Below, one piece after another: positions 30,554-63,439 of a stretch of 64,000 nucleotides of DNA. Under the pieces are notes generated by a model that did no database searches, was not told where the DNA came from, and saw only the letters and a program-made list of their open reading frames with translations. Position numbers and translations under genes: made by a program. Source of the DNA: Bryum argenteum (lineage: Eukaryota; Streptophyta; Bryopsida; Bryales; Bryaceae); assembly GCA_037043015.1 (NCBI GenBank), contig CM073324.1:25188097-25252096 (forward strand). Direction: 5' to 3'. The first letter of the stretch is position 1. The number at the start of each line of letters is the position of its first letter.

Positions 30554-33500
30554 AATGCGGAACGTCCTCGTTTCGCTCCTGATGATATCTCCAAATGGTT
30601 TCTTGACAATGGGTAAGGTTGTGAACGGGCTCCCATGTTGCATCGTGGATGGGATAACCTTTCCATCGGACTTTGTATTGTAGTTGCGGACGTCCATTGC
30701 CACGACGAAGATAGCGATGTTCCAAAATGCAGTCCACTTCATATTCCTCCTGGTCTTCAATCACTACCGGTGGCGGCGGAGGCTGATGTCGGCTGAAAGC
30801 GCTCCGATTGATATGAAATTCTTTGAGCTGCGAGACATGAAAAACTGGATGGATGTGGATATGTGGTGGAAGCTCGACGCGGTATGCAACATCAGATATG
30901 ACCGTAGAGATTCGGAAAGGTCCAATCCACCGGGGTGCAAGTTTACGGACTTGAGTCGATGTAGCTAACGGAAGGTTGGCATTTGAGAGCAGAACCAAGT
31001 CACCTTCTTGAAAGGTCTTATGTTGCCGGTGGTTATCTGCATATTGTTTTTGTCGATTCTGTGCAGTAAGGAGCCGCTGTCGAGCCTCTTGCAACGCCGA
31101 TGTTAGTCGTTGTATAAACTCCTCCGTTGTAGGGTTGTTGGTGTTGATGGGGCGGTGGAGCGTTGCGGCGTGTCGGTCTCTTGACCAGCGTTAAGAAAGA
31201 ATGGTGAATGACCCGTCTTGCTTGAGAACTATCATTATAGGCGAACTCAAAGGGGTCGAATCTCATCCCGTCGTTGTGGTGAATTGCCACAAACGCCCGC
31301 AAAGATATCCTCCAGGGTCCGGTTAGCACGCTCTGTCTCATCCCATCGGTCCGAGGATGAAAGGTCGTGGACATAGCAAGTCGTGTGCCGAGAAGCTTGA
31401 ATAGTGCTTGCGAAAACTCCCCGTGAAGCGCGGATCCCGATCCGAGATAATGACACGAGGCAATCCATGATGACGGAAGACAATGATCGAAGAAGACTCG
31501 TGCAAGTGTTGGGGCATCAATATCGGAGCGCATCGCAGACCAAATGAATTTGCTTCGAAGGCGGTCCACAAAGACAAAGAACCGCAGTGTGATTACGATG
31601 CGTCTGGCAAACAAGTAATGAGATCCATGGTTACTTGTTCCCATCGCATCAGAGTAGGTAGTGGAATCGGCCGCAGCAGCCAAGAGGTGCGATGATTGCG
31701 TGCCTTGTTCCGTTGGCATAGCTCACGCGAACGCACAAAAGCTCGAACATCACGATCCAAGCCCACCCAAAACCATGTTCTAGAAATCCGTTCTAAGGTC
31801 TTCTCACGTCCGAGATGTCCAGAGATAGGAATGTCATGCCCTTCTTGAAGTATGCGGGTTCAAGTTTAGCATCGTTAGGTACATAAACCCGCTTCTTAAA
31901 ATAGAGGAGGCCGTCAACGAGGTTGTAATCTTGATATTATACATCACCTACCTCTACTCGATCGATCACCATTGTGAAGTAAGCATCCCGGTAGGTGGCT
32001 TCCTTCCATTCTCTCCCTCTCGGTTAGATCCGAACAATACTACTAATGGTAGCAATCTCCCTCGTGTCCTCTCCGATTGATTTCGGATCTGGTCTCCGAG
32101 ATAAAGCGTCTGGCACAATATGTTGTCGCCTTTGCTTGCATCTTGAAGTTGAATATCAAACAATTTAATCGTTCTTCCCAATGGTGGTGTCTCGATTTCA
32201 TATTTTCTAAATGCAGATCATGTAGTAAGGGCCGATGATCGATCCGAATTGTCACAGTTTCCCCAATAGATAGTGCCGCCATACTTTGGTAGCATGTACA
32301 ATTGCTAAGTTGTTCCCGATCACGTGCGAGAATAGTTGCGCTCGCCTCTTAAGTTTGCGTGACTCATATGCCACCGGTTGAAGGCCCCTACCGAAGTCTT
32401 GTTGGAGGACCGCGCCTATAGCAAAGTCGGAGGCGTCAATGTCAACCGTCTGCGGAAGGTCAGGATCATATGGTTGCAGAATTGGAGCAGTAGTAAGTGC
32501 TTCCTTCAAATTATTGAAAGCGCCTTGTTGTTGTAGTTTCCACTCAAATGGAGCGCCATTCTCCAATAGATTTGTCGAGAGCAAAGAATGTGCGCAAACC
32601 GCCGAACAAAACGACGATAGTATCCGGCGAGGCCTAAGAAAGAACGAACTTGAAAACATCCTTGGGAGTTGGCCAGTCCTTCACCGCATTCACCTTAGCT
32701 TGTTCCATGTACACACCCTCGAATGATACTACATGCCCCAAAAAGGTGACCTCGGACTTCCAAAGTTCACACTTTGATTGCTTGCAATAGAAGTGACTAT
32801 CCCAGAATCGACGTAGCACCTCCCGTAGATGTTGGTCATGCTCTTCCGGGATTTTACTATAGATCAAAATGTCGTCAATGAAAACAACTACACACTTGTC
32901 CAAAAGGTCCCGGAACAACCTGCTCATGTGACCCATGAAGGAAGTCAAGGGCATTGGTGAGACCAAAAGGCGAACGAGCCACTCAAAATGTCCATAGCGC
33001 GTCGAAATGTTGTCTTTTCAATATCCTCTTTTGCAATTGGTATCCGCCAAGATCCACTTCAAGATCTAGCTTGCTAAAAATGGTTGCGCCTCCGAAGTTG
33101 ATCAAGAAGGTCATCCACACGTGGGAGTGGATAAGCATTTTTGATGGTCCGCTTATTAAGGCCCCGATAATCGATGCATAGCCGCAATCCACCATCCTTT
33201 TGGGTGCAAAAGGACAGTGCTCCCATGGCGATGTGCTTTCTCGAATGAGGCCCTTCTCCAAAAGCTCGTCCAACGTCTTCCTCGCCTCCTCAAGCTCGTT
33301 TGGTGCTAGGCGATAAATTGGCCGATTTGCTTTGGTTTAGCTTCCGCATTAAGTCTATGTGGAAGGGAGCACCTCGATCGGTGGTAAACCACTAGGTAAG
33401 TCGGGCGGGAAAGACATCTCGGAACTCGCCGATAAGTTGCTCAACTCGTTCGCTCCTTCGGCTCTCTTCTCTACCATTGAAGCAATATTTGGAACCACCA

Positions 33501-46099: not shown

Positions 46100-47800
46100 C
46101 TACAAAATTTGCAACGTCGACAAAGCCTTTTCAACACGTTCACATATAACACATAACGATGGTACAAAATGTATGGATAATACAAGAAAGTTCCATCTAA
46201 CAAGAAACCTGAAAATACCGCATGTGCATGACAAGAGTCCGACCCACTACAAAGATTCAATCAGAGAAACTCCGTACTAAACAATATTATTACCCACTGG
46301 CCTGCAGTCACCAATTGGTGAGACGATTAGTATGCGAAAATGCAACATCCCCATGCAACTGATAACAAAATTCATAACGTCAACGTAGTTATCCATCACC
46401 CAAAACAGCTACTTGTTGTGAAAATAAAGTTGACAGTCAATAATCATTGAATATAGTTTCAAAAGGACTCTCCTTCTTTGAAGATGTGTGAGGCTCTATC
46501 TAACATACTACAGTAGTGGACCAAAGAGAATTGCATCACAACGTCTACATGACTTCCTCTACAAAGTCCAAAACACAACTGTGAAGCTTTATTTCATACA
46601 GAACAAGCACTTTGTTCATGAAGAAGACCAATCTTCTCATACTTCTGAAGCTTTCGTACATATAAAAACTTAGGGATCCTGCTACGGTTCTTATTACAAT
46701 GGTTAATTATACAATATTCGAAGAAAATGATGACAACCTAGAAGTTCAAAGTGTTCAAAGTGCTGGTGCAAAATTTGATACTACCAGTCGAAGAGATGGA
46801 CTCAAATCGAAGGAATAAAACGATACCCTAACAGAACAAAACTTGTTCGTGGCAACTATGCATTTTGGACGGAGACGAATACTGTCAAAGGCGACATGAT
46901 GACAATGGCTAGACGCTCAAAACTCCGACCACGAAGTAGCAGCACTCACACCCCATTAAATACAATAAACCCTAATAAAACAATCCAGGAGGCATCAACT
47001 CAAATTGCAAGACTAATTTTTGATCTCCGGACGAAGACCGATAGGTTCAGAGGCGACGTCGACAATGACAACGGCAAGCCCCGATCAAGACCCCGACACG
47101 AAGAAACAACAAAGGGGATATTCGTTATTTTGAGACAAAATGGACATATTGAGATGTTGAAAAACACACACGCAAGGGGGCTATGGAAAAAGTTGTTGAA
47201 ATATTTCAAATGAAGAAATTTAAATTCACATGCTAAGCGAAAAGAACGATTTGAAGGGTCCAATCATAAAGCAAAAGGCTTGAAAACGAGATCGTACTAT
47301 AAATAGACTGAATTAGACATCGATTTGACAACTTAATATTTCTAAAAATAGACATTGAACAATACACAGTAAAGAATCAAATAGGAACCATGTACACATT
47401 AATTCCCATGAGAAGACACAATTGATTCAAGTGAGATCATAGTTGGATCACATGGTAAAGGCTGTATTGAAGTATGAAGAATACGTACAATTGTATAAGT
47501 ATACACTATATTTTGACATTGGTATATCGTGAAAGAATGAAATAAGAGAATAAATGTAGAGGCATTAAATTTTGTGCCTTTCATAATACTAAAGAAAGAG
47601 TAATTAGAAGAATGTTTATAGAATATACGAGGAATATACGAGGAATATACTAATCACATCAGAGCTATAAATGCATAGTCAAGGAAGGGGAAAATCCTCA
47701 ATAAGCACAACTATGTAAGTGGTGATATCTTAAATGTACTAGGTTCCACCAAGATCCGAAACACTATATGTTGAATATATTCCGCTGATAAAGGATATCA
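46100..47800. other. Probable intron and intergenic sequence
   Basis: AT-rich with a GC-richer patch at 46,900-47,110 that might be a first exon or promoter of the minus-strand gene at 45.4 kb. No exon could be joined with confidence. Confidence 0.35.
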
Positions 47801-47832: not shown

Positions 47833-48660
47833 TTAAGGCCGTGCCTCTTTAGACTTAGAGCCATTCAGCTTGGCTTCGGCCTCGTGCTGCTTCATAAGTG
47901 CGCGAATAAGATCATTGCGACGAGAGTTTGGCAGGCAATTTGTATCCAAAGTCTCACTCCGACGGGCAAACCACGTGTCAAAACATTCCCCATCACGCCT
48001 ACGAAGGGAGTCAAGAGAACGCGAAGGACGAGAGGATGAAGGAGCTGCCGATTCCCCACGCGCAGGATACGGCCGGGGTGTGCAAGGAGCTCGCCTTGAT
48101 GGTGGGGGGCGCGATGCTAGTGGCTTCGCAAGAGGCAAGAAATCCGCCTTTGAACGCAGTTGTCGCGGGGCACCGCCGAGGGATCTTGTTGCCCTGCTAC
48201 AGTTGTAATTATTGACTTGGGTCGCGGATTGTGATGTATTCGACGTCCCACCCACATTGATGGTGGAAGGAGGAGCAATAGAATCTCGCATAGGAACGTC
48301 CATAGCACCCACGCTGGAGTAAAGTTGCCTTTGAGGAGTTCTCGAATTAAGGGCATCAGGTGATATAGAGCGCCTCCGCGATGGCGATGTACGAAGCCGC
48401 TTCAGAGGAGACGGAGAGCAAACCGGAGTCCGAATAGGACCACGACTCGGCGGGCTGTCAACAACATTGTCATCAACACTATCTCTTGTAAAATCCATCG
48501 TTGCGGATGCAGCGTCCGTAGCCGTGAACATATTAAAATGCCTCGACGCGAGAGAAGCGCCAACACTTGCAGAGAGTGAAACAGAACATTCCAGGACGGA
48601 GGTCTGGTAAGAGACATCATCATCTTCACCGGACTCATCGACGGTGGAAGGCGCTTTGAC
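47833..48660 (-). CDS. Terminal exon of a Ser/Arg/Pro-rich, probably disordered nuclear protein
   Basis: A 276-codon open stretch (stop included) follows a TTCTACAG acceptor. It starts VKAPSTVDESGEDDD, then has proline-directed phospho-site-like text (SPLKRLRTSPSRRRSISPD), a low-complexity middle, SR-type dipeptides (SSSRPSRSLDSLRRRDGE) and a Lys-rich end (LNGSKSKEARP, TAA). No enzyme motif is seen. Basic clusters suggest a nuclear location, which is inference. Upstream exons are not identified; its intron (48,661-48,830) carries three damaged copies of the locus palindrome, as in the larger gene upstream. It could be the end of the FCP1-like gene or a separate one. Confidence 0.5.
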   Translation of the reverse strand, partial: VKAPSTVDESGEDDDVSYQTSVLECSVSLSASVGASLASRHFNMFTATDAASATMDFTRDSVDDNVVDSPPSRGPIRTPVCSPSPLKRLRTSPSRRRSISPDALNSRTPQRQLYSSVGAMDVPMRDSIAPPSTINVGGTSNTSQSATQVNNYNCSRATRSLGGAPRQLRSKADFLPLAKPLASRPPPSRRAPCTPRPYPARGESAAPSSSRPSRSLDSLRRRDGECFDTWFARRSETLDTNCLPNSRRNDLIRALMKQHEAEAKLNGSKSKEARP

Positions 48661-48726
48661 CTGTAGAACAAAGCCAGAAATGCATGGAGTCGGTCAGGAA
48701 AGATGGACGTAAGAAACATGGAAGCG

Positions 48727-48830
48727 TTATCCACGAAGCGGGGATAACTAAAGCCGGGGGATAACTGATGTCATATTCATGAATGCATTGAAGCTGATAC
48801 TTCCGAAGATTATCCCCGGGCCGGGCAAAA
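48727..48830. repeat. Three degenerate copies of the 21-base palindrome
   Basis: At 48,727-48,747 (left arm altered), 48,752-48,765 (right half only, GCCGGGGGATAAC) and 48,810-48,830 (left arm intact, right arm changed). They mark the outer limit of the repeat in this window. Confidence 0.75.
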
Positions 48831-49067: not shown

Positions 49068-50083
49068 TCATCTAGACAATGACTTAGGAAATGAAGGAGT
49101 CTCGTAAGTACGTCCTAAGTTCCTATGCGATTGCGCCATACCATCTAAAATAAACCTCCCTAAATTTCTATACTTATTGATAGGCGGAATACCAATCCTA
49201 TGATTGTCTACATAGGACCGAAGATTCCCAGGCCTGCAATTGGCGAGAAGAGCGAGTAGCCATGGAGTAAGAACGGCGGACAGAGTATTGTCCTCTCTGC
49301 TAGATTTTGTCCAAGGCTGGAGGAAAATGGCGTTCCCAGTGTGGTTGCAAATACTCTTCTCAGGACTGTCGTCTATAAGGAGAGTGTTATCCAACCCAAA
49401 CACAACAGCACCGTTACTAAGCGGGAACACCGCAGAGGACAACGTTTTCAAAAATATCCTCTTTTGAGCATTGGTTGGGTACGACAAATAGACACCTCTG
49501 TTAACCTCAACCAATCCACAAGACTCTTGTCCGAGGATCTCAAAAGGCTTAGGAAGTCCACTGAAGAGGTAGTCGATGACGGCCTCAACAGTGGACTTCT
49601 TCATCGAACTCCATATCACAACCCTCGCAACATGGGCGGACATGGTCTCCAAGAATTCCCTCACTCCCGGGCGGCAGAAGACCGCCTTTGGAGGCACCTT
49701 CGCTGGGATGTCCGGCACGTAGAGCCGGTCCCTAGGAGAGCACATGGGAGAATTCTTCCCGAGCGATGGCAGATGCACACACTGACAAAGTATCCCGTTG
49801 ATGTCGAGGACGACATTCAACCATCGAGGCGGCGCCGTCTGCTCGAGTGCAGACCTCGGCCGCGGGACACACTCAAATTGGGAAATCAATTCTACCTGGC
49901 ATCAAAGGAAACGATAATGTTGAGGATACCTGATTGAAAGCAGAGACACTTCGATCTGAGCAAATCCACAATGACGGCATGCATTGCATCCGTGGCATTG
50001 GGGCCAGATCGATCGGATTCTGAAGCATTCTCACGGCCCGTGGGCGCAGAATGAATCCCACAGAGGTGAACTGAGAAAGACAT
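49068..50083 (-). CDS. FCP1/NLI-interacting-factor-type (HAD) phosphatase-like protein
   Basis: The main exon (49,891-49,068, stop TGA) encodes an FCP1-homology domain. Motif I reads LNVVLDINGILCQ, like the plant-specific branch with LDLNGLL where the second catalytic Asp is replaced by Asn. Then come FCRPGVREFLETM, VVIWSSMKKSTVEAV and motif IV with TLLIDDSPEKS. This fold removes phosphate from Ser in RNA polymerase II tails, but loss of the second Asp makes catalysis doubtful. A first exon at 50,083-49,930 (MSFSVHLCGIHSAPTG..) can join in phase, but only by a 38-base intron (GTATCC..GGTAG), very short for a plant; a frameshift is the alternative. A CCTATAAG box lies about 30 bases upstream of the ATG. 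The gene starts only 189 bases after the stop of the next gene upstream. Confidence 0.7.
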
Positions 50084-50271: not shown

Positions 50272-53200
50272 TCATAACGAGTAAGGGTCGTCGATCTCCT
50301 GCAGGAGAAAATAGACGAATAAGCGAAGTTTAGGCAAGCGAATCGGTTTAGGTCCAGACCAAGACAAACAAAATAATGACGGTTGTGACGACGACGACTA
50401 TATTGCAGTCGTGGGAGGGAGGGTCAAAGAACTTACGTTATCATGTGGCTCTTGCGGTTGTGCAGCGACCGTCGGGCTCGAAGAATAGTCCACCAGCTGC
50501 TGGTCTTCGGCATCGACCTGGGTCCTTGGCGGAGTGGTTGCGATCTCTTGCTCCTCGGACGCTGGAGCTGCAGTTGGATCAGGTATGACCTCTGCGCTCG
50601 CCTCGATAGCACCTGGAGCACCCACGGTGTCCTCCACTTCGCCTGTAGGCTCATCATTATCCCCGGGCCGGGCATAATTAACCAACTGGTCGTACTGCGA
50701 GAGCTCTAGACCTGAGTCAGCAGCTAGAGCAGGTTGGACGTCGGGAGGCGACACCTCAACAGAAGAGTCTGGATTATCCCCGAGCCGGGGATAATCTCCT
50801 GACTTATCAAGCTGATCGGAAGATGCCTGAGAGGCAGCAACGACATCGCGCTGGTCGGCATCACCGAGAGAACCAGTAGCGACAAGCTCAGGATCATTCT
50901 GAGGGGCAGATGGCTGACACTGGGAGTCGGAGCCGATCGCTGCGAGATTATCCCCGGCCCGGGGATAATCAGGAGAGGCAATGCCGGAGGGCAGCGTCAA
51001 AGAATCCACCTCGCTACAATGAACAGCAGCTGTGGTGGTGGCAGCATTATCCCCGGGCAGGGGATAATCTAGAGAAGCAGTGCCCGAGGGGAGGGGTAAG
51101 GGCCCCCCCTCGCTGCTAGGTAGAGCAGCTGTGGTGGTGGCAGGGTTATCCCCGGCCCGGGGATAATTTGCACCAGGCTCGGAACCAGGGGCGTCCGAGG
51201 TAGTTGGAAGATCCGGATGCTCGCCTCTAATTATTGCAACAACGTAGTCCGGCATTGGCGTGTTACTTCTCACCCATTCATACACGACGTTAGCCTCTGC
51301 GATCTTTCTTGCGTCCTCAGCTTCCTTTTTCGCCTTCGCTTCTGCCAGCCTTGCCTCCTCCGCTAACCTCTTTCTAAGCTCCCCGTAGTGCTCTTCAACC
51401 TTCACACCCGGGGCACCTGGAGGAGGCGCCACTCCTGCTGCATTCGCCATTGGGTCAGTAGAGGGGTTGCACACAACCTTCTCTTTCTTTACCTCCGTGT
51501 CAGCAGCAAGAGCAGCCAACTCGGCCTCATCAAGTGGCCGGTGACGACGGGAGCTCGAAGGTGTCGACGATGGGAGAGTGATGGTTTCGGGAGCTGGGAC
51601 ATCGATCACGTAGACTTCATCCGATGGATCGGTGCCTTCCTCGTCACTCAGATCGATGTACACGAGAGTGGGCGCCACGTATGCATAGATCGGCCTCCCC
51701 CGTCTGTTAACGACTTTACTCTGCGGGGTTGTGTCCACCGCAGGTGCAACAGTGGAAGAGGGCATGGCGCAAGATGCCCCATCCAATGGCTGACTTGGAG
51801 TCGTGGTCTCAGCTGCGAGATCGAGCCGACGTTTCAATGGCCTCCGGGACTCGGGGTTGCCCGATGATCCCACGACAACATCCGCAGATGATTGCACAGG
51901 CATTGTCGTTGTCAAGACGAGCCTCGACGGGATCTCTGGCATGGGCTCTTTACCAGGGCGACGGGTCTCGGCATCTTTCCCCTGCGCCTCGTGCTCATCA
52001 CCCATCGGAGTGGACCTAGGAGGAGATGTCTCCATTGGCTCTGGTGATGGTGCTGTTGGCGATGCCCCAGCTGATGGTGCTGCTGGAGATGGCTCCGCTG
52101 ATGGTGCATCAGGTGTTGCTTGGGGTGATTGTGCTACTGGCGTTGCTTGCGGAGATAGCATGACCTCCTGTCCCCGCGCCTGATAACCCGAACGATAGTC
52201 CGAGTCGTCGGAATCGTCACCGTCGGAGTCTGTGGAAGGCTCATCACTTTTCTTCTCCTCCGAGTCGTTTGAAGAAGTATCTGGGGCCTGAGTATGAGGC
52301 GATCGCGTACTTTCAGCTCCCAGGTCGGACTGCGGCTCAGCTGCAGAAGATGATGGTTGGCTTCCCTCAAATGAAGCCCTTGTTACGAGGCTGAGGTCGC
52401 CCATATCATCAGAAGATGAGTTCTTCTTCGTGTCGTAGGGACAGTTATCGTGGAGAAAGTCCCTAAAGTCAACCCTCTCCCTTTTACCCGCAGAGAGCAG
52501 GTAACCCGCGTAGTAGTGCCTGTCAACTAAGCCATAAAAGGCATGTCTCAGGATCTGCATGAGATGAGATGAAAGGATCAGTCACATTCGACATGCAAAA
52601 GTTATCCCCGGCCCGGGGATAACCGATACAAATTGCCATCAGATAAATAATCAAGATTTCAATCCATGAGAAGAGATGACGAGCTTACCAGGGAGGCAAC
52701 CATGAATTTTGAGCCGCAAAAGATTCCAAGGGTTGATTCACCCTTCTTGCAGTACTGGCGGATGAGTCCAATGTAGAACTCCATCCGCAGCTCCGAGTAC
52801 TTAGCAGACCACTTGGCTTCGTTGTAGTGCCCACTATCTATGTAATAAGGCACATTAGCGGCTTTGAATTCCGCGGGGTTGGTGCCGACGAAGGCTTGCC
52901 CTTCTGCTGTCTTCTTGAACAAGAAGACGACGAACACGTCGTTCGAAGCTTTCTCCAGGGATGTGGCGTTGTAGATCCTCTCAGGTGTAGACTTGAGATA
53001 CTTCGACGTGCTCATTGTATAGTTCGGGTGGCTCACCGTAATCATCGCCTTCAGCGTTTCCAGCTTCTTCGTGATGGCGCCGTTCACGATCCATACCCAT
53101 ACAGTAGGGTCTGTGTAAGCCGGATTCGAGATCACCGCAAACTTTGCTACCAAGGCCTTGAAGAACTCCTTTGCAGAATCAGAAGTCTTGCAGAGTGAGA

Positions 53201-55647
53201 ATGCAGTGTCTCGCAAGTCAAACAGCCCAAGAGAAACTGTTCCTGCAGGCGCCGGAGTTGACCATTGGCCACTGATATTCATGGCCTTCGAGTCAAACGT
53301 TCGAAGATAGAATCCCTTGGTGGACTCCCGATGCTTGGTCTTCTCCCGCAAGAAGTTCTTGAAAAAGTCCTCTGCGTTGGGAAACATGGACTTCATCTCC
53401 TCGGCTGTCTTGCACTTCCCTTGATTTTGCAGTCGGGTCGAGTAGAATTTTGCCTCAGGGTGGCTGAGCAGCATGTTCCACGACGCCGTTGAGAAGCCCT
53501 TCCTCGACTTCCATTTCTTCCATTTCACTGGGCAAACGCCTCCACCGTTGGGAAGGAAAAAAGGAAGAGATGGTCTGACCGCCTGGAACTCTTGGTAAAC
53601 GATTGCCTTGCACTTCTGTCGAATTATCCAATCACCACAGGCGTGGCTCAAGCGATGGAAGTATTTTGTCTTGTGAAAGGACAATCTGGGATACTTCATC
53701 GCTCCTTCCGCGGTTTCAACGTGGACTAGGAAGGTGATGACCCTGTCGATGTTGTCATCGGAAAGATTTCCGAACTTCCTGAAGAACTCCCGGCTCACAT
53801 GATGCTGTTTCTTCGTGAAGTAGGCTGGGTTCATGCGATAAGCATCACCTGTGTCCGGATTGATAAGATTTCCAAGCGAATGGAGTTCAAGGAACTCCAC
53901 GAACTTATCGTACATGGTGTCCGGAAACGTAATGATCTGGATCTCGTGCTTGAGGTCCGATGTAGTCAGAATCGACTTCCCTGCCTTGGTGGGGTCGATG
54001 TTTCTGAACCGGATGTTGAGCAGATCCGTGAATTTCTGAGAGACATTAAAATGAAGTGTTAGATAAGATGAGAGCAGTTCAAGTATCTAACAAAGAGCAT
54101 GTCTAAGCGCTAGAGCCAAGTTATCCCCGGGGCGGGGATAACTGTTCCAGTAATACTGCTAATGGCTAATGGCGAAATGAGACTGCAACAGACTTAGAAT
54201 TATCCCCGGCCCGGGGATAATCCTTGGGGACTATGTAGAGTCTTACCTTGAAATTGGTGGGACTGTACACCGAGTCGTTATTGCGTGTCGCGTTCTCGTT
54301 CACGCTTGCGGCTGGCCGGCCACACTCGATCCAAATAGACCTTCCAGGTCTTATCTGGTTGCCCCACGTCGGCTGGGCGTGCTTCAGAGGATTGGTGGTG
54401 TTGTAGAATGCCGAAATCGAAGTGAGGCGCTTCGGGTCGGTCTCGTACAGAATGTATGCATACCACGATAGAAGTTCTTTCTTCCTGTCCTTTGTCAATG
54501 GCTCGTTCTGAAGCTCCCTCGAGGCTTCCACGGAGTGCTGGCCATCAATGATAGCAAATCTTCCATCCTTGATTTCCTCCCATGTTGTAGGTCGTCTGGG
54601 AAGCAGATCTCCATTGGCGTCGATGGGGGTGATGATAATCGTTTGCCTCCGGTCGCCATCGCCCATCATTGAGAGGAACTTCTTGGTATTATCCACGATG
54701 TCCCGTTCAAGACTTCGCACTACCCACGTGTGCTTTCCTCTCACAAGCTGCGAAATGGGCACCAGCTTCTGTTCTTTCTTGAACAGGATTGAGTCCTTGA
54801 AACTGGCGTTGAAGCATGTCTGCTCAGAAGCAAACCTCACATAGTCTGCGACTTCAGCCGAAGGTTTGGAAGAATCCTTCTTCTGACGGGCGGGCACTTC
54901 GACGGTAGAGGTCAATGCCGATCCTTGACTTGTTGTTGCAGCGGGAGCGGTACGCTGTCTCTTCTTCTTGGGGGCGGCTCCGCCAGCTACAATCGCATTA
55001 TTCATCAGCCTCTTTGCAGGAACACGCGGGGGAGCCGGCACAGCACCACTTGAGACCGGGGCTGAAGCCTCTGAATGCACGACAAGTGCAGAGGACGCAG
55101 GTGCCTTCTTTTTCTTCGCAGCTCTACTGCTTGATCCCTCGTGCGTCTGTGACAGTCTGGACAGCATCGTTGTGAGCTTACGAACTGTATCTTCCTGGTT
55201 GATGTTCTCCCAGCTCTTGATGTTGTCCTCCTAGAACTTGAGAAAGCCATGCCGGGTCTTGCGCAGCTCGGCAAGAAAGCCGTGCGGGTCGAATTGTGCT
55301 CCGCAGTTTTCACCCACCTCTACCACAATTCCGAAGTGGTAAGGTTCCTTGTCCTCGTCCACCTGTAGAAGAACACACCTGAGCAGCATGTACTTCTGCC
55401 TGTGTGCTTCGAATGCTGTCACCCTAAGATTCTGGTGCAAGGGAAGGAAGGGGTCCGTCAAGACCAACTTGGTCATGACCAGAACATGGTTCTTGACGAT
55501 CTTCAACGACCAGCTGGCGACCACCTCCTTGAAGAGCCAGAGATCAAGGCTTTCATCATCGTTATCGCTCAGGAATGGGTTGAACCCAAATGGGTGCTGG
55601 ACCTTGTTTAAGGTGTACTCGAGGGGATTTGTGTCGCTGAGAGCCAT
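50272..55647 (-). CDS. ParB-like / DNA-methyltransferase-like fusion protein
   Basis: Exons 55,647-54,247, 54,035-52,689, 52,554-50,437 and 50,298-50,272 all join in phase 0 (1,630 codons before TGA, one of them an internal TAG at 55,233-55,231). Donors are GTAAGA, GTAAGC, GTAAGT; acceptors CTCTCAG, CATGCAG, CCTGCAG. Residues about 1-160 are unrecognised; about 227-232 is KKKRQR (nuclear-signal-like). About 295-380 resembles a ParB/sulfiredoxin-like domain (LVPISQLV, then FAIIDGQHSVEASRELQ, with Ser where ParB has Arg). About 730-960 has the order of a beta-class DNA amino-methyltransferase: LGLFDLRDTA in the DPPY position, then LIRQYCKKGESTLGIFCGSK and FYGLVDRHYYAGYLL like the (D)xFxGSGT..GxD end. 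Both catalytic motifs differ from the norm. The rest is acidic, Pro/Ser-rich and holds five DYPRAGDN-type octapeptides encoded by the palindrome. Function in DNA marking is inference. Confidence 0.7.
50657..51166. repeat. Five copies of the 21-base palindrome inside coding exon 4
   Basis: Copies at 50,657, 50,774, 50,948, 51,047 and 51,146 are all read in the same frame as (N/D)Y(P/A)(R/L)(A/P/L)GDN. Of three frames one would give a TAA stop and another IIPGPG; the frame used is constant. The last three belong to a tandem duplication of about 99 bases (33 residues, with ATTTAA and LPSG(T/I)AS phrases). Confidence 0.9.
52602..54220. repeat. Palindrome copies in introns 2 and 3
   Basis: Copies at 54,121-54,141 and 54,200-54,220 lie in the 211-base intron 54,246-54,036, and one at 52,602-52,622 in the 134-base intron 52,688-52,555. 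So both short introns carry at least one copy. Confidence 0.9.
55231..55317 (-). other. 87-base segment: retained intron or coding with a nonsense codon
   Basis: The segment starts GTGGGTGAAA and ends TTCTAG, so it fits GT-AG rules, has a length divisible by three and ends exactly with the in-frame TAG. Removing it joins VVE to EDNIKSWENINQ. Reading through it gives protein-like text (DPHGFLAELRKTRHGFLKF) before the stop, which favours a once-coding stretch. Confidence 0.6.
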
Positions 55648-55704
55648 CGTTTGGTCTGCAATCGTCAATTTCAACTCATCAGTACTAATGCAAAAAGAAT
55701 TTAA

Positions 55705-56676
55705 TTATCCCCGAGGCGGGGATATTGTTTTCCTAGTCTAGCTGATTTCTACAACTGAGCTGTGGAATTATCCCCGACGCGGGGATAATCTGCTGTTGTC
55801 CTTTCGAGAACCGATAGGCAAGAACAAAATTATCCCCGGGCCGGGGATAACATCCGCATGTAAAGGGCACATAGCCGACCTGTGCAGAAATTATCCCCGG
55901 GTCGGGGATAACTTCCTTATGCAGCGGTCATGAAGCTGACCTGAGCAGGAAGTTATCCCCGGGCCGGGGATAACTTCTGCATACAGAGGTCACAATGCAA
56001 CGCTCAATGCAGAGATTATCCCCGGCCCGGGGATAATTCTGTGCTCAGAGCAGAAAATTATCCCCGGGCCGGGGATAATCTCCGCATATAGATCATCTTT
56101 GTGACCTCTGTGTGCAGAGATTATCCCCGGCCCGGGGATAATTTTTGTAGTGTGTTACTAGTTTATGTTCGTTTTTAGGAATTATCCCCGGCCCGGGGAT
56201 AATATGTTGTTTATCTAACTAGTTTTTTAGGAATTATCCCCGCCCCGGGGATAATCTTTTTTTTTTAAATGATTAGTGACGTTACATATGAAAAAATTAT
56301 CCCCGGCCCGGGGATAATTTTTGTAGTTTGTTACTTGTTTATGTTCGTTTTTAGGAGTTATCCCCGGCCCGGGGATAATTTTTGTAGTTTGTTACTTGTT
56401 TATGTTCGTTTTTAGGAGTTATCCCCGGCCCGGGGATAATTTGTTGTTTATCTAACTAGTTGTTTTAGGAATTATCCCCGGCCCGGGGATAATCTTTTTT
56501 TTTATTGATTAGTGACGTTACACATGACGTAGATTATCCCCGGCCCGGGGATAATTTTTGTACTTTGTTATTACTTTTAGTTCGTTTTTAGGAGTTATCC
56601 CCGGCCCGGGGATAATTCCTTAGCACACATGGCAAATACTGTGCTTGCGCGAGATTTATCCCCGGCCCGGGGATAA
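55705..56676. repeat. Array of 17 palindromes in intron 1
   Basis: Starts at 55,705, 55,768, 55,830, 55,891, 55,953, 56,016, 56,058, 56,121, 56,182, 56,234, 56,297, 56,358, 56,419, 56,472, 56,534, 56,595 and 56,656, mostly 53-63 bases apart. Arms TTATCCCCG and CGGGGATAA hardly vary; the central triplet is GCC, GGC, GGT, ACG, AGG or CCC. Part of the array (56,142-56,600) arose by tandem duplication of a unit of about 61 bases whose spacer contains TTTGTTACTTGTTTATGTTC. Confidence 0.93.
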
Positions 56677-56727
56677 CATTGGGAGCCAGAGCTGGAATAT
56701 CACGCATTGGCATCTTGTGAATCGAAT

Positions 56728-56860
56728 CTAATATCTACATACGACGTAGATTTCAGCATTCAGCAGCAATTCAATGAATGGAAATGACTTAATCTAATAT
56801 CTACACATGTCGTAGATTTCAGCATTCCACAGCAGTTTTAGTGATTGCAATGAGTTAATC
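56728..56860. repeat. Tandem duplication of about 66 bases
   Basis: Two units, each opening AATCTAATATCTACA and containing CGTAGATTTCAGCATTC, lie between the palindrome array and the first exon. Confidence 0.8.
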
Positions 56861-57213
56861 AATTCAGGAAAAACAACTCGGATTGGGAGCTCACCTAATT
56901 AAAAAGCTTAGTGACTGCTGGATGTGTTCCAGCAAATTAAAGCCCAATTCCACGCTGCGTATGATTATAAACTGCAATTCCAAGTGCACATTCAAAACAC
57001 AATGCCAAACACATACCCAATCACAATTCCAAAACAATTGCGAGCATCAGGGTGAGTTCAGCTCAACCCTACTGGACCTGAATGCGATCCTACTGAACCT
57101 GCTGCAAGGAGCTACAGAACTGAAACAAAGATGAATTCGACATTTAAACCGAAAATGCTACCTAAAAGCATGAAATTGATGGGATAAACCGAAGAACTGA
57201 GGTCTTGCCTCAC

Positions 57214-57720
57214 CTGTTCTGCCCTGGTTCACGTCCTGGTGCAGCAGAACCCTCGAGCTGCTCCGCAGCAAAATGCAAACAAAACCAAATAAAACAGAAA
57301 CCCTAGCAGCTCCGAAGCTGCAAACAAAACCCCAATCGGAACCCCGAACAGCTCCGCAACTGAAGCGCAGTAGGATCGACGGCGCAACAAAAGGCAGCGA
57401 CTCTGCGAAGACCTGCGAGGAGGGCGGAAAACACAGGAGAGAAGCTGCGAGCGACGGCGCAAATGCGAGGACGGAGAAAAAGCGAAGTAGCAGAGAGAAG
57501 CGCGTCGAGCGAGGAGAATAAAAGTGCGACGAGCTGCGAGCGACGGCGCAAATGCGAAGCGGAGCGGAAACAAGCAGCGCTGCGAGGAGAAAAGAGGAGC
57601 GCAGTCTGTGAAGGAAAAGACGGCGCAGGGGTCATCATGCCCCTGCCATCATTACTGCGCATGCGCATGGTCATGCGCATGGCTATGTGCATGTGCATGG
57701 CCATGCACATGACCATGTAC
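57214..57720 (-). promoter_or_regulatory. Probable non-coding first exon and promoter of the ParB/methyltransferase gene
   Basis: On the minus strand a strong donor (GAACAG before GTGAGGC) lies at 57,214/57,213, and an acceptor (GATTGCAG) at 55,656 sits 8 bases before the ATG at 55,647 (context AAACGATGG). The intron would be 1,558 bases and hold the whole palindrome array. The exon is GC- and pyrimidine-rich like a 5' leader and includes a duplicated 88-base unit (GCGAGCGACGGCGCAAATGC at about 57,449 and 57,537). Upstream at 57,655-57,722 lies an alternating GCATGCGCATGG sequence with an exact TGCGCATGCGCA palindrome. Confidence 0.55.
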
Positions 57721-57722
57721 AT
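57655..57722. repeat. CATG-rich alternating purine-pyrimidine run
   Basis: Runs of CATGCGCATGG, CATGTGCATGG and CATGCACATG overlap as palindromes; such sequence can adopt Z-DNA. It lies at the likely transcription start of the minus-strand gene. Confidence 0.75.
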
Positions 57723-57964
57723 GTTTGGTACTCATGCCAATGAACGGAAAAAAAAACATAAAAAATTGCTTACTTTTTTCTTTTCACTTCTTTTAATTCA
57801 CTACTTGGGTTTTTAAATAAATTTGGTATGCAAAGAGAATAAAAAAACTTTTCAGTTCCTTATCGAAGTTTAGAATGCGTATTCTTTCTTTGTTTTTTTA
57901 AAAATAATTCGACTTGGTGTTCTATTCAAATGCACTTTGGTTTCCTTGGAAGATCCTTGTATAA

Positions 57965-61221: not shown

Positions 61222-61510
61222 TTAGTTGTCTGATGATCCGACCACAACAACCGCATGTGATTGAACAGGCACGATTATCGTCGTGACGACCCTCCACGGG
61301 ATCACTAGCATAAGCTCCTTACTAGGGCGTCGTGTCTCGGTATCGGGCCCTTGCTCGTGCTGCTCCTCACTCATCAGAGTGAACCTAGCAAGAGATGTCT
61401 CCATTGCCTCTGCTCATGGTGCTGGTGGTGATGCCTGATAACCCGCACAATACTCTGAGTTATCCGAATCGTCGCCGTCAAAGTCGCTAGAAGCGTCATC
61501 ACATTTCTTC
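61222..61510 (-). pseudogene. Decayed fragment of exon 4 of the ParB/methyltransferase gene
   Basis: The minus-strand frame at 61,404-61,222 starts METSLARFTLMSEEQ and has TETRRPSKE and VVVVGSSDN. Exon 4 of the gene at 50-56 kb has METSPPRSTPMGDEH, AETRRPGKE and DVVVGSSGN (about 52,034-51,850). The plus strand after 61,432 (TGATAACCCG.., then TCGTCGCCGTCAAAGTC) matches 52,181-52,250, with about 110 bases of exon 4 missing between. No palindrome is present. So a related gene copy once existed here, or this is a duplicated piece. Confidence 0.75.
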
Positions 61511-61519
61511 TTCTTTGAT

Positions 61520-62575
61520 ATCATAATAAGATTTTTTTGAACTAAATTTAAATAGCATTTCTATGTGTGAGTCATTCAATCCAAGCCTTCAAAGGCATAA
61601 TTTGAATTCTCTCAAGCTAGTTGTCATTACTATTATGCAAAATAAAGTTTATGTACATAAAATGAATTATAATAATTATAATATAACATAAACTAACATA
61701 TTAAGATATAGTATTATAAAGTATAATATTATACAATATAGTTCAATAGAATATAATAGTATTTATTAAATCTTAGTTAATAGCCTTTAATATGAGATAA
61801 TAAAATATAGTATAATATATTATAATATAACAAACTTCTTCCATTTTTATATTTCAGAGTTAAAGGGAATCGGACTAAATATCAAGTTAGAAATGATTGC
61901 AAATTAAAAAAGGAATAACTTTAAAAACTGTGAGATATGAATTGACAAATTATAATCATATTGTACAATAATTATAATCATATAGTGTAATAATTATAGT
62001 CTAACAATAATAATAACAATAATTATATAGTATATAACCTTAAGATAATGGTATACAATTTAATATTGCATAATAATTATAGTATAGCGTAGTATAATGT
62101 ACTAAAATATAGTATAACATAGTATATTTTATTACAATAGAATATTAAACGATAATATAAATATGTTTGAAAGATAATAATATATATCATATAATACTAC
62201 ATAACATAAAATAATGTAAAACTTTTTCATATACGAAAATACATCATATTAGAATATTATATAATATAAAATAACATTTTCTATATTTTATAAGATATTA
62301 GAAAAACTTCATAATACCATATAATACAATATATTACAAAGATAATACAGAAAATGTTGGAAATTATAGGAAATTATAGTAAATAATAGTATGATATAGT
62401 TTAATAAAGTATCACATAATATTATATAGTAATATATTCTATCGAATAATTAGTATAATATAGTATAATATACTCTAATATATTATAATGTAGTATAACC
62501 TAGAATAATCAAACATAATACAAGTTAATAGAATATAGAATAATAAAAGAATATCATATAGAATTATACTATAGG

Positions 62576-62576
<1 letters not shown>
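61520..62576. other. Extremely AT-rich sequence, no gene
   Basis: Made mostly of ATAGTATAATATA-type words; probably decayed simple repeats. Confidence 0.6.

Positions 62577-62631
<55 letters not shown>
62577..62631. repeat. (AT)n microsatellite
   Basis: About 54 bases of pure AT dinucleotide. Confidence 0.95.
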
Positions 62632-62634
<3 letters not shown>

Positions 62635-62683
62635 CTCAGATGTAAAATTATATAAAATAAAATCTCATAATACAATATAATAT

Positions 62684-63290
62684 AATACAATACAATATAA
62701 TACAATATAATATAATATAATATAATATAATATAATATAATATAATATAATATAATATAATATAATATAATATAATATAATATAATATAATATAATATAA
62801 TATAATATAATATAATATAATATAATATAATATAATATAATATAATATAATATAATATAATATAATATAATATAATATAATATAATATAATATAATATAA
62901 TATAATATAATATAATATAATATAATATAATATAATATAATATAATATAATATAATATAATATAATATAATATAATATAATATAATATAATATAATATAA
63001 TATAATATAATATAATATAATATAATATAATATAATATAATATAATATAATATAATATAATATAATATAATATAATATAATATAATATAATATAATATAC
63101 TAAATATAATATAATATAATATAATATAATATAATATAATATAATATAATATAATATAATATACTAAATATAATATAATATAAAATAATATAATATAATA
63201 TAAAATAATATAATATAATATAATCTAAAATAATCTAATATAATCTAATATAATACAACATACTATAATATACTAAATATAATATATAAC
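62684..63290. repeat. (TATAA)n pentanucleotide array
   Basis: From about 62,706 to 63,096 the five-base unit TATAA repeats without a break that I can see (nearly 80 units), then continues with short interruptions such as ACTAAATATAAT to about 63,290. Confidence 0.95.
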
Positions 63291-63439
63291 TCTAATTTTG
63301 TAGTTATTATAGTTTATTCAATAAATACACTAATACGAATTCGTATTTCTTTTTCCACTTCTCATAGTTATGTATACAATGTTCAATTTTGTAGAGAAAA
63401 GTAGTATACAATATTTTATGTAAAAAATAAAAAACCGAT

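Follow-up and report, generated by a model that had tools for sequence, protein, structure and literature searches.

Fusions of a ParB domain with a DNA methyltransferase, in this order, are known from bacteria. Dinatale et al (2025, PMC12477816) described a ParB-methyltransferase accessory protein on Sola1-1_Ec32, a 21.5-kb giant DNA transposon of Ectocarpus, where it is encoded on the strand opposite the transposase and predicted to make N4-methylcytosine or N6-methyladenine. The passages concerned also cite green and red algal examples and see in such proteins what may be a new class of accessory, able to bind and modify the element that encodes them; they name no target, and “palindrom” does not occur in the main text. 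Another point of comparison is VANC of the Arabidopsis VANDAL transposons, whose motif lies in tandem repeats in non-coding transposon regions, differs between related VANCs (PMC5735166), and whose action leads to a loss of DNA methylation (PMC5735166, PMC10398659). Here we analyse a stretch of 64,000 nucleotides of Bryum argenteum (contig C4 of the assembly, positions 25188097-25252096; “the window”). It contains most of a DNA transposon, 21.5 kb long, with terminal inverted repeats; this copy is decayed and carries a ParB/methyltransferase-like gene and arrays of a 21-bp palindrome. We consider it on balance probable, with moderate confidence, that the protein of this gene acts as a dimer without catalysis, reads the palindrome of its own lineage and de-represses the promoters of the element by anti-silencing or autoregulation. 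This kind of accessory protein is already known (PMC12477816, as far as its passages describe it). As far as our searches of the literature reach, the target palindrome with its lineage-bound change, the lost methyltransferase motifs and the association with a phosphatase gene and with DUF7869 are new; a co-varying palindrome was not found in the literature covered, and Iyer 2011 and Petroll 2025 (green, red algae), which lie outside that coverage, may describe sites.

The locus is a DNA transposon, as follows from its repeated unit, its inverted ends with 4-bp target duplications, and the number of such ends in the genome. Comparison of the window with other palindrome-holding stretches (blastn) delimits a unit from 47112 to the extended coordinate 68625 (L029:4625), sharp at both ends and on no particular strand; its right end lies 4.6 kb beyond the window. 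A reading of the letters alone, made earlier (the sequence-only reading), had suggested, as one reading, a selfish element within 50272..57720. The suggestion is supported by the shared ends, duplications and repeated unit, and the interval does hold the gene and most of the window's palindromes but is too short. The ends are imperfect 27-bp inverted repeats: the left one, AAGGGGATATTCGTTATTTTGAGACAA, lies at 47112..47138 on the plus strand, and the right one has AAG in place of CGT. In the genome searched (258.8 Mb, 25 contigs) ends of the AAGGGGATATTCGTTATTTTGAGACAA type occur 69 + 71 = 140 times at no more than one mismatch, and the reversed control not at all. Four copies with the CC form of the palindrome are flanked by AACA (the window copy), ATAT, ACAC and CTAG. 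A related element with the GT form, also on C4 (L031), is 19.8 kb long, has related ends AAGGCCATATTCGTTAAAATGAGACAA and is flanked by ACTA, giving a 4-bp duplication in all five copies of which both ends were read. Duplications of 4 bp are a trait of the Sola1 superfamily and of other superfamilies too; those observed here fit Sola1. A Physcomitrella Sola1 is listed in a review table (PMC9033089).

The palindrome, TTATCCCCGnnnCGGGGATAA, has 22 sites in the window, or 23 if the centre is left free, every one of them between 50774 and 56676. If up to 4 errors are allowed the window has 27 matches; of these, 25 lie inside 50272..57720 and the other two, at 48727 and 48809, are weak. Genome-wide the exact 21-mer occurs 661 times (reversed control: 0) and the general form TTATC-NN-CG-nnn-CG-NN-GATAA 1544 times (control: 1). 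The largest groups, counted at up to 3 mismatches, stand in front of genes. Array 1 (55705..56676, 17 sites, no strand) lies 5′ of the ParB/methyltransferase-like gene, begins 58 bp upstream of its ATG and is spaced mostly by 61-63 bp, also by 52-53 and 42 bp; array 2 (64044-65090, beyond the window, 23 sites) lies 5′ of the DUF7869 gene with a spacing of 46 bp. Given the 46-bp spacing of array 2, we make no claim of helical phasing for array 1. The site search places three further palindromes in introns, two between exons 2 and 3 (54121..54220) and one between exons 3 and 4 (52602..52622), and another five in the last exon (50655..51166), one of these five imperfect when both halves are counted; none is assigned a strand. 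Those of the last exon are translated in frame, three of them as YPRxGDN and the others as YPLPGDN and YARPGDN. Mean pairwise identity of the arms is 0.99 and 0.93 in the two arrays of the window element, with flanks at 0.32-0.37, and 0.99, 0.93 and 0.97 over the three arrays compared, with flanks at 0.32-0.38. The sites have therefore been kept while their neighbours drift.

ParB proteins are dimers. Sites that are two-fold symmetric, kept, crowded 5′ of genes and changed symmetrically with lineage (see below) are what one would expect for a dimeric DNA-binding regulator encoded by the element itself. An unlikely alternative is that the protein serves transposition, assembling a complex at the sites or joining the ends, in the way TnpA of Spm has been proposed to bring ends together. 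It draws on the string GGGGATA in the terminal repeats of CC-type elements, which resembles the half-site CGGGGATAA, and on the position of one array 3.5-4.6 kb from the DUF7869 end. The main arrays, however, lie inside the element, at distances of 8.6-9.6 kb and 3.5-4.6 kb from its nearer end and 5′ of the two genes, and the GT-type terminal repeat reads AAGGCCATATT, which is not the GT half-site. The terminal repeat was accordingly discarded as a candidate half-site, as the likeness at the CC-type end is not followed at the GT-type end.

The gene which may encode the regulator is on the minus strand, in open frames at 55704-55231, 55230-54166, 54086-52659 and 52581-50398. AG/GT splice ends chosen by eye would join 55647-54247, 54035-52689 and 52554-50398 in phase into about 1,630 codons, close to the 1,600 residues proposed earlier, but the first coding exon of the window copy is interrupted by an in-frame TAG (55231..55233). 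Its 5′ part (55234..55647) starts with MALSDTNP; its 3′ part (“exon 2”, 54247..55230) comprises a linker and a predicted ParB-like domain (IIDGQHS ... FYNTTN). “Exon 3” (52689..54035) contains a helical region and a predicted, degenerate amino-methyltransferase fold (LFDLRD, FCGSK), and the last exon (“exon 4”, 50398..52554) a methyltransferase-like strand, FYGLVDRHYYAGYLL, followed by a low-complexity tail which encodes the five palindromes; the splice sites of both are putative. The ParB-like and methyltransferase-like peptides quoted in the sequence-only reading are all present in these frames. The stop codon, together with the broken DUF7869 gene, marks the window copy as decayed, and relatives exist without the interruption: in the paralogue L030 (C7:9690986-9692368) one open frame of 996 amino acids runs through the first coding exon, the next intron and exon 3, and a frame of the same length is found in a second copy (C6:689279-690661).

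Structure prediction indicates a ParB N-domain fold and a Rossmann methyltransferase fold in the permuted order of the beta-class DNA amino-methyltransferases. In the exon-3 model the helical region lies ahead of the methyltransferase fold, the rows of the structural alignment covering 242-450 only. The protein probably goes back to a ParB-methyltransferase fusion of bacteria or phages, with which it shares the order of domains and from which it differs as a eukaryotic gene with introns and degenerate motifs. Among viral models the exon-3 model came closest to “ParB/Sulfiredoxin” of a phage (E 2.5e-4 over 421 columns), but at a template modelling score of 0.23 and a root-mean-square deviation of 17.8; PHROGs gave nothing convincing for exon 3 (best E 0.0085, in one row of 17, to an unnamed family), and a tblastn search of plasmids with exon 3 gave no match. 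As in the Ectocarpus element, a ParB-like domain and an amino-methyltransferase would be united in one protein of a 21.5-kb transposon, on the strand opposite the transposase; the two, compared by description only, differ in that the Bryum motifs are gone.

The exon-3 genome search scored 90 of 1044 candidates, and in an alignment of 34 exon-3 rows, some of them truncated, the catalytic [DSN]PP[YFW] is found in none. The motif IV position reads D[LVI]R in 23 of the 34 rows (by regular expression). Beta-class enzymes bind S-adenosylmethionine through FxGxG. Here the same means show 26 of 34 rows with a glycine motif of the form xGxK or (once) xGxN, ending in K or N instead of G, the others being truncated, decayed or missed. 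The divergent motifs noted before (LFDLRD, FCGSK) are confirmed, and the binding rather than methylating role deduced from them is supported as a reading of the sequence. It is improbable that the protein is an active enzyme, marking its own element with N6-methyladenine or N4-methylcytosine after binding to the palindromes, even though the fold is predicted to be that of a methyltransferase and Dinatale et al suggest the same for the similar Ectocarpus protein (PMC12477816, in the passages concerned). A rotifer enzyme of the same fold is inactive once SPPY is changed to APPA, according to the part of PMC8885841 dealing with it. N4CMT of bdelloid rotifers is an active host protein with SPPY that marks transposons; the present one is carried by the transposon, its motif gone. 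The Bryum protein presumably no longer methylates. With the catalytic motifs lost, its methyltransferase fold is best read as a part for DNA binding or as a scaffold.

The palindrome changes with the lineage of the element. L031, 32% identical to the window copy in exon 3, has 12 strict sites, of which 10 read TTATCGTCGnnnCGACGATAA and two have AT in one half; both halves have changed together. Genome-wide, 965 sites are CC/CC and 173 have, in each half, a T as the second variable base, compared to a single GT/CC hybrid. Back-translation of proteins from other sources, in which intron palindromes are read through so that the peptide covers the two half-sites, suggests the forms CC (YPRxGDN; P0008, P0012, P0021), AC (YHRxGD; P0004, P0011) and CT (YPRxED; P0015, P0016), the last also for P0006, where LSSSRG stands at the end of the frame. 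In a midpoint-rooted tree of the 34 exon-3 rows the deepest split (100/100) places the rows with a CC or AC label apart from those with a CT or GT label, and rows without a label fall on either side; the labels were set by us, and for nine rows (L033-L038, L041-L043) the label CC was based on one to three strict sites each plus some decayed ones. On contig C1 up to 10.8 Mb, a strict T-type site lies within 12 kb of 7 of 8 L031-like places (sites from a thinned set of the first 100 T-type places, one gene fragment per locus).

We therefore favour a regulator of the element's own. The ParB/methyltransferase-like protein would be a dimeric, sequence-specific factor which binds the 21-bp palindrome of its own lineage. 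Its sites are crowded upstream of its own gene and of the DUF7869 gene, which are divergent, and the bound protein would mark these promoters and de-repress them in cis and in trans. Binding may activate rather than repress, and the outcome could be anti-silencing or autoregulation, by analogy with VANC for the VANDAL elements. VANC is likewise encoded by a transposon, and the short motif that it recognizes is specific to the lineage and repeated in tandem in non-coding stretches of the element; such a motif is present here, with some lineages mixed. Unlike VANC, this system would pair a 21-bp palindrome with ParB and methyltransferase folds, and the likeness would be one of mechanism, by analogy. 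It would be a second, independent case of lineage-specific self-recognition, and it proposes for the ParB-methyltransferase class a target, a 21-bp palindrome with two lineage-variable positions beside a catalytically degenerate fold. The natural swaps (CC, GT, AC, CT) make the idea directly testable by binding assays, and a palindrome-specific binding module could be useful in plant epigenome work. A bolder version, which we hold to be doubtful, is that the fusion became a nucleotide-gated clamp that loads at parS-like palindromes of its own lineage, spreads and keeps the element unsilenced, with two symmetric bases as its specificity; sister lineages would then run parallel, insulated self-recognition systems in one genome. 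ParB and Noc share with our system a ParB-like domain and clustered palindromic sites. They are CTPases with a phosphate-binding box of GERR type, which is absent here: of the six rows of the ParB-region alignment five reach the box and read GQHS there, as does L031.

Several observations weigh against a lineage-reading regulator. The ParB and methyltransferase domains of the sequence-only reading appear in structure prediction, but the two models are of moderate confidence (mean predicted local distance difference test 58.5 and 67.5), and gene pieces and alignments gave no ParB or methyltransferase match in Pfam, NCBIfam, PHROGs or PDB sequences. The helical region of exon 3, possibly the DNA-binding part, has no match, and no helix-turn-helix was identified. 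Site and protein lineage do not agree everywhere. In a second GT subfamily, 46-60% identical, two members (L039, L040) have a symmetric change of the outer bases, GTATCGTCG...CGACGATAC; on the same part of C1 a strict T-type site lies no more than 12 kb from only one of nine places of this subfamily, and one of ten CC-clade exon-3 places has such a site 3 kb away. An old subclade on the CC side (L034, L035, L037, L041, L042) shows CT half-sites among its few, decayed sites, and the only strict site of L034 is CT/CT. Moreover, the lineages of site and protein are inseparable from that of the element as a whole, and the sites could thus be read by DUF7869 or by the phosphatase.

These companion genes are linked to the ParB/methyltransferase-like gene. 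From the left end of the element the minus strand carries an open frame of 286 amino acids (47833..48693; no Pfam match, 82-95% identical, in part over partial lengths, in six other sampled stretches), a gene like NIF and carboxy-terminal-domain phosphatases (49068..49901; PF03031, E 4.4e-15) and then the ParB/methyltransferase-like gene. The DUF7869 gene (PF25273, E 2.5e-23) is on the plus strand near the right end; in this copy it is split into several broken frames, and in three other copies it lies within open frames of 979 amino acids. It probably encodes the transposase, judged by its position and the conserved GHTHEDID. A literature search for “DUF7869” found no paper. L031 has its phosphatase (PF03031, E 1.6e-9) and DUF7869 gene in the same arrangement. 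Linkage was counted for 60 of the 95 exon-3 matches, those of about 300 residues or more, with the eligible C2:31264043 left out. Downstream on the same strand and within 12 kb, mostly 3.7-4.1 kb, the phosphatase gene accompanies 47 of the 60; the DUF7869 gene is found upstream, head-to-head and within 40 kb, in at least 34, a lower bound since the count used part of the rows for DUF7869, most of low identity being omitted and three from another listing added; for the phosphatase it used most rows. Neither gene occurs in another arrangement at these distances in any of the 60. The phosphatase may help transcription at marked promoters. In the genome as a whole DUF7869 has at least 151 matches, several with open frames of about 1000 amino acids, and appears as a large transposase-like family.

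Since the genes of the element share one lineage, co-variation cannot separate them, and one might assign the sites to DUF7869 or the phosphatase and another task to the ParB/methyltransferase-like protein. We think this improbable. A dimer-type palindrome suits a ParB-like protein, and in C1:1-2.86 Mb, among the matches listed, five of six exon-3 places have a strict site at 3 kb or less (the sixth, C1:1940299, is 182 kb from a strict T-type site), while three of five DUF7869 places are far from strict sites and exon-3 matches alike. Of the other two, one is near sites and one, C1:1962408, is 21 kb from the site-less exon-3 place C1:1940299. Five of six phosphatase places also lie within 5 kb of a strict site. 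This check, of small number, leans towards the ParB/methyltransferase-like module and does not settle the reader, which counts among the points against our preferred reading; still, we take that protein as the likely reader.

A role of the palindromes as RNA hairpins, for splicing, processing or as small-RNA precursors, is highly unlikely: each could fold as a GC-rich stem, symmetric changes preserve pairing and some sites are intronic, yet the mismatched arm pairs of 313 sites on the gene-sense strand comprise 62 G-U, 60 A-C and 104 others, hence no excess of pairs tolerated by RNA, and both of the lineages sampled retain the fixed bases TTATC and CG. We give equally little credence to functionless amplification of a palindromic repeat, which would account for the unit-like spacing of 46 and 61-63 bp but not for arms 93-99% identical beside flanks at 32-38%, nor for the recurrence of this architecture, its bases changed, in a deep lineage and in genes from other sources.

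The distribution of the elements is uneven. Contig C1 (44 Mb) holds 41 of the 60 long exon-3 matches, compared to 10.2 expected by length (binomial p ~2e-18), and may be a sex chromosome or another chromosome rich in transposable elements; nearly all L031-like matches listed are on C1 as well. Inside the element, 61225-61435 resembles part of the last exon (protein 43% identical to residues 107-242 of that frame; DNA identity 74-82% across copies) and sits in the non-coding middle, in other copies too. A very AT-rich, satellite-like tract at 61650-63320 (G+C 0.10 in 62001-63000) has many-fold matches in other copies. Beyond the 5′ side of the ParB/methyltransferase-like gene, overlapping inverted repeats of the CATGCGCATG/CATGCACATG type stand in a row at 57644-57739, and L030 is similar near 880-930. 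Rfam and tRNA scans of the window gave no match. Outside the element, a minus-strand frame of 229 amino acids at 31033-31722 has no Pfam match and contains the peptide STTFHPRTDG, which we take to be like an integrase motif of the Ty3 type.

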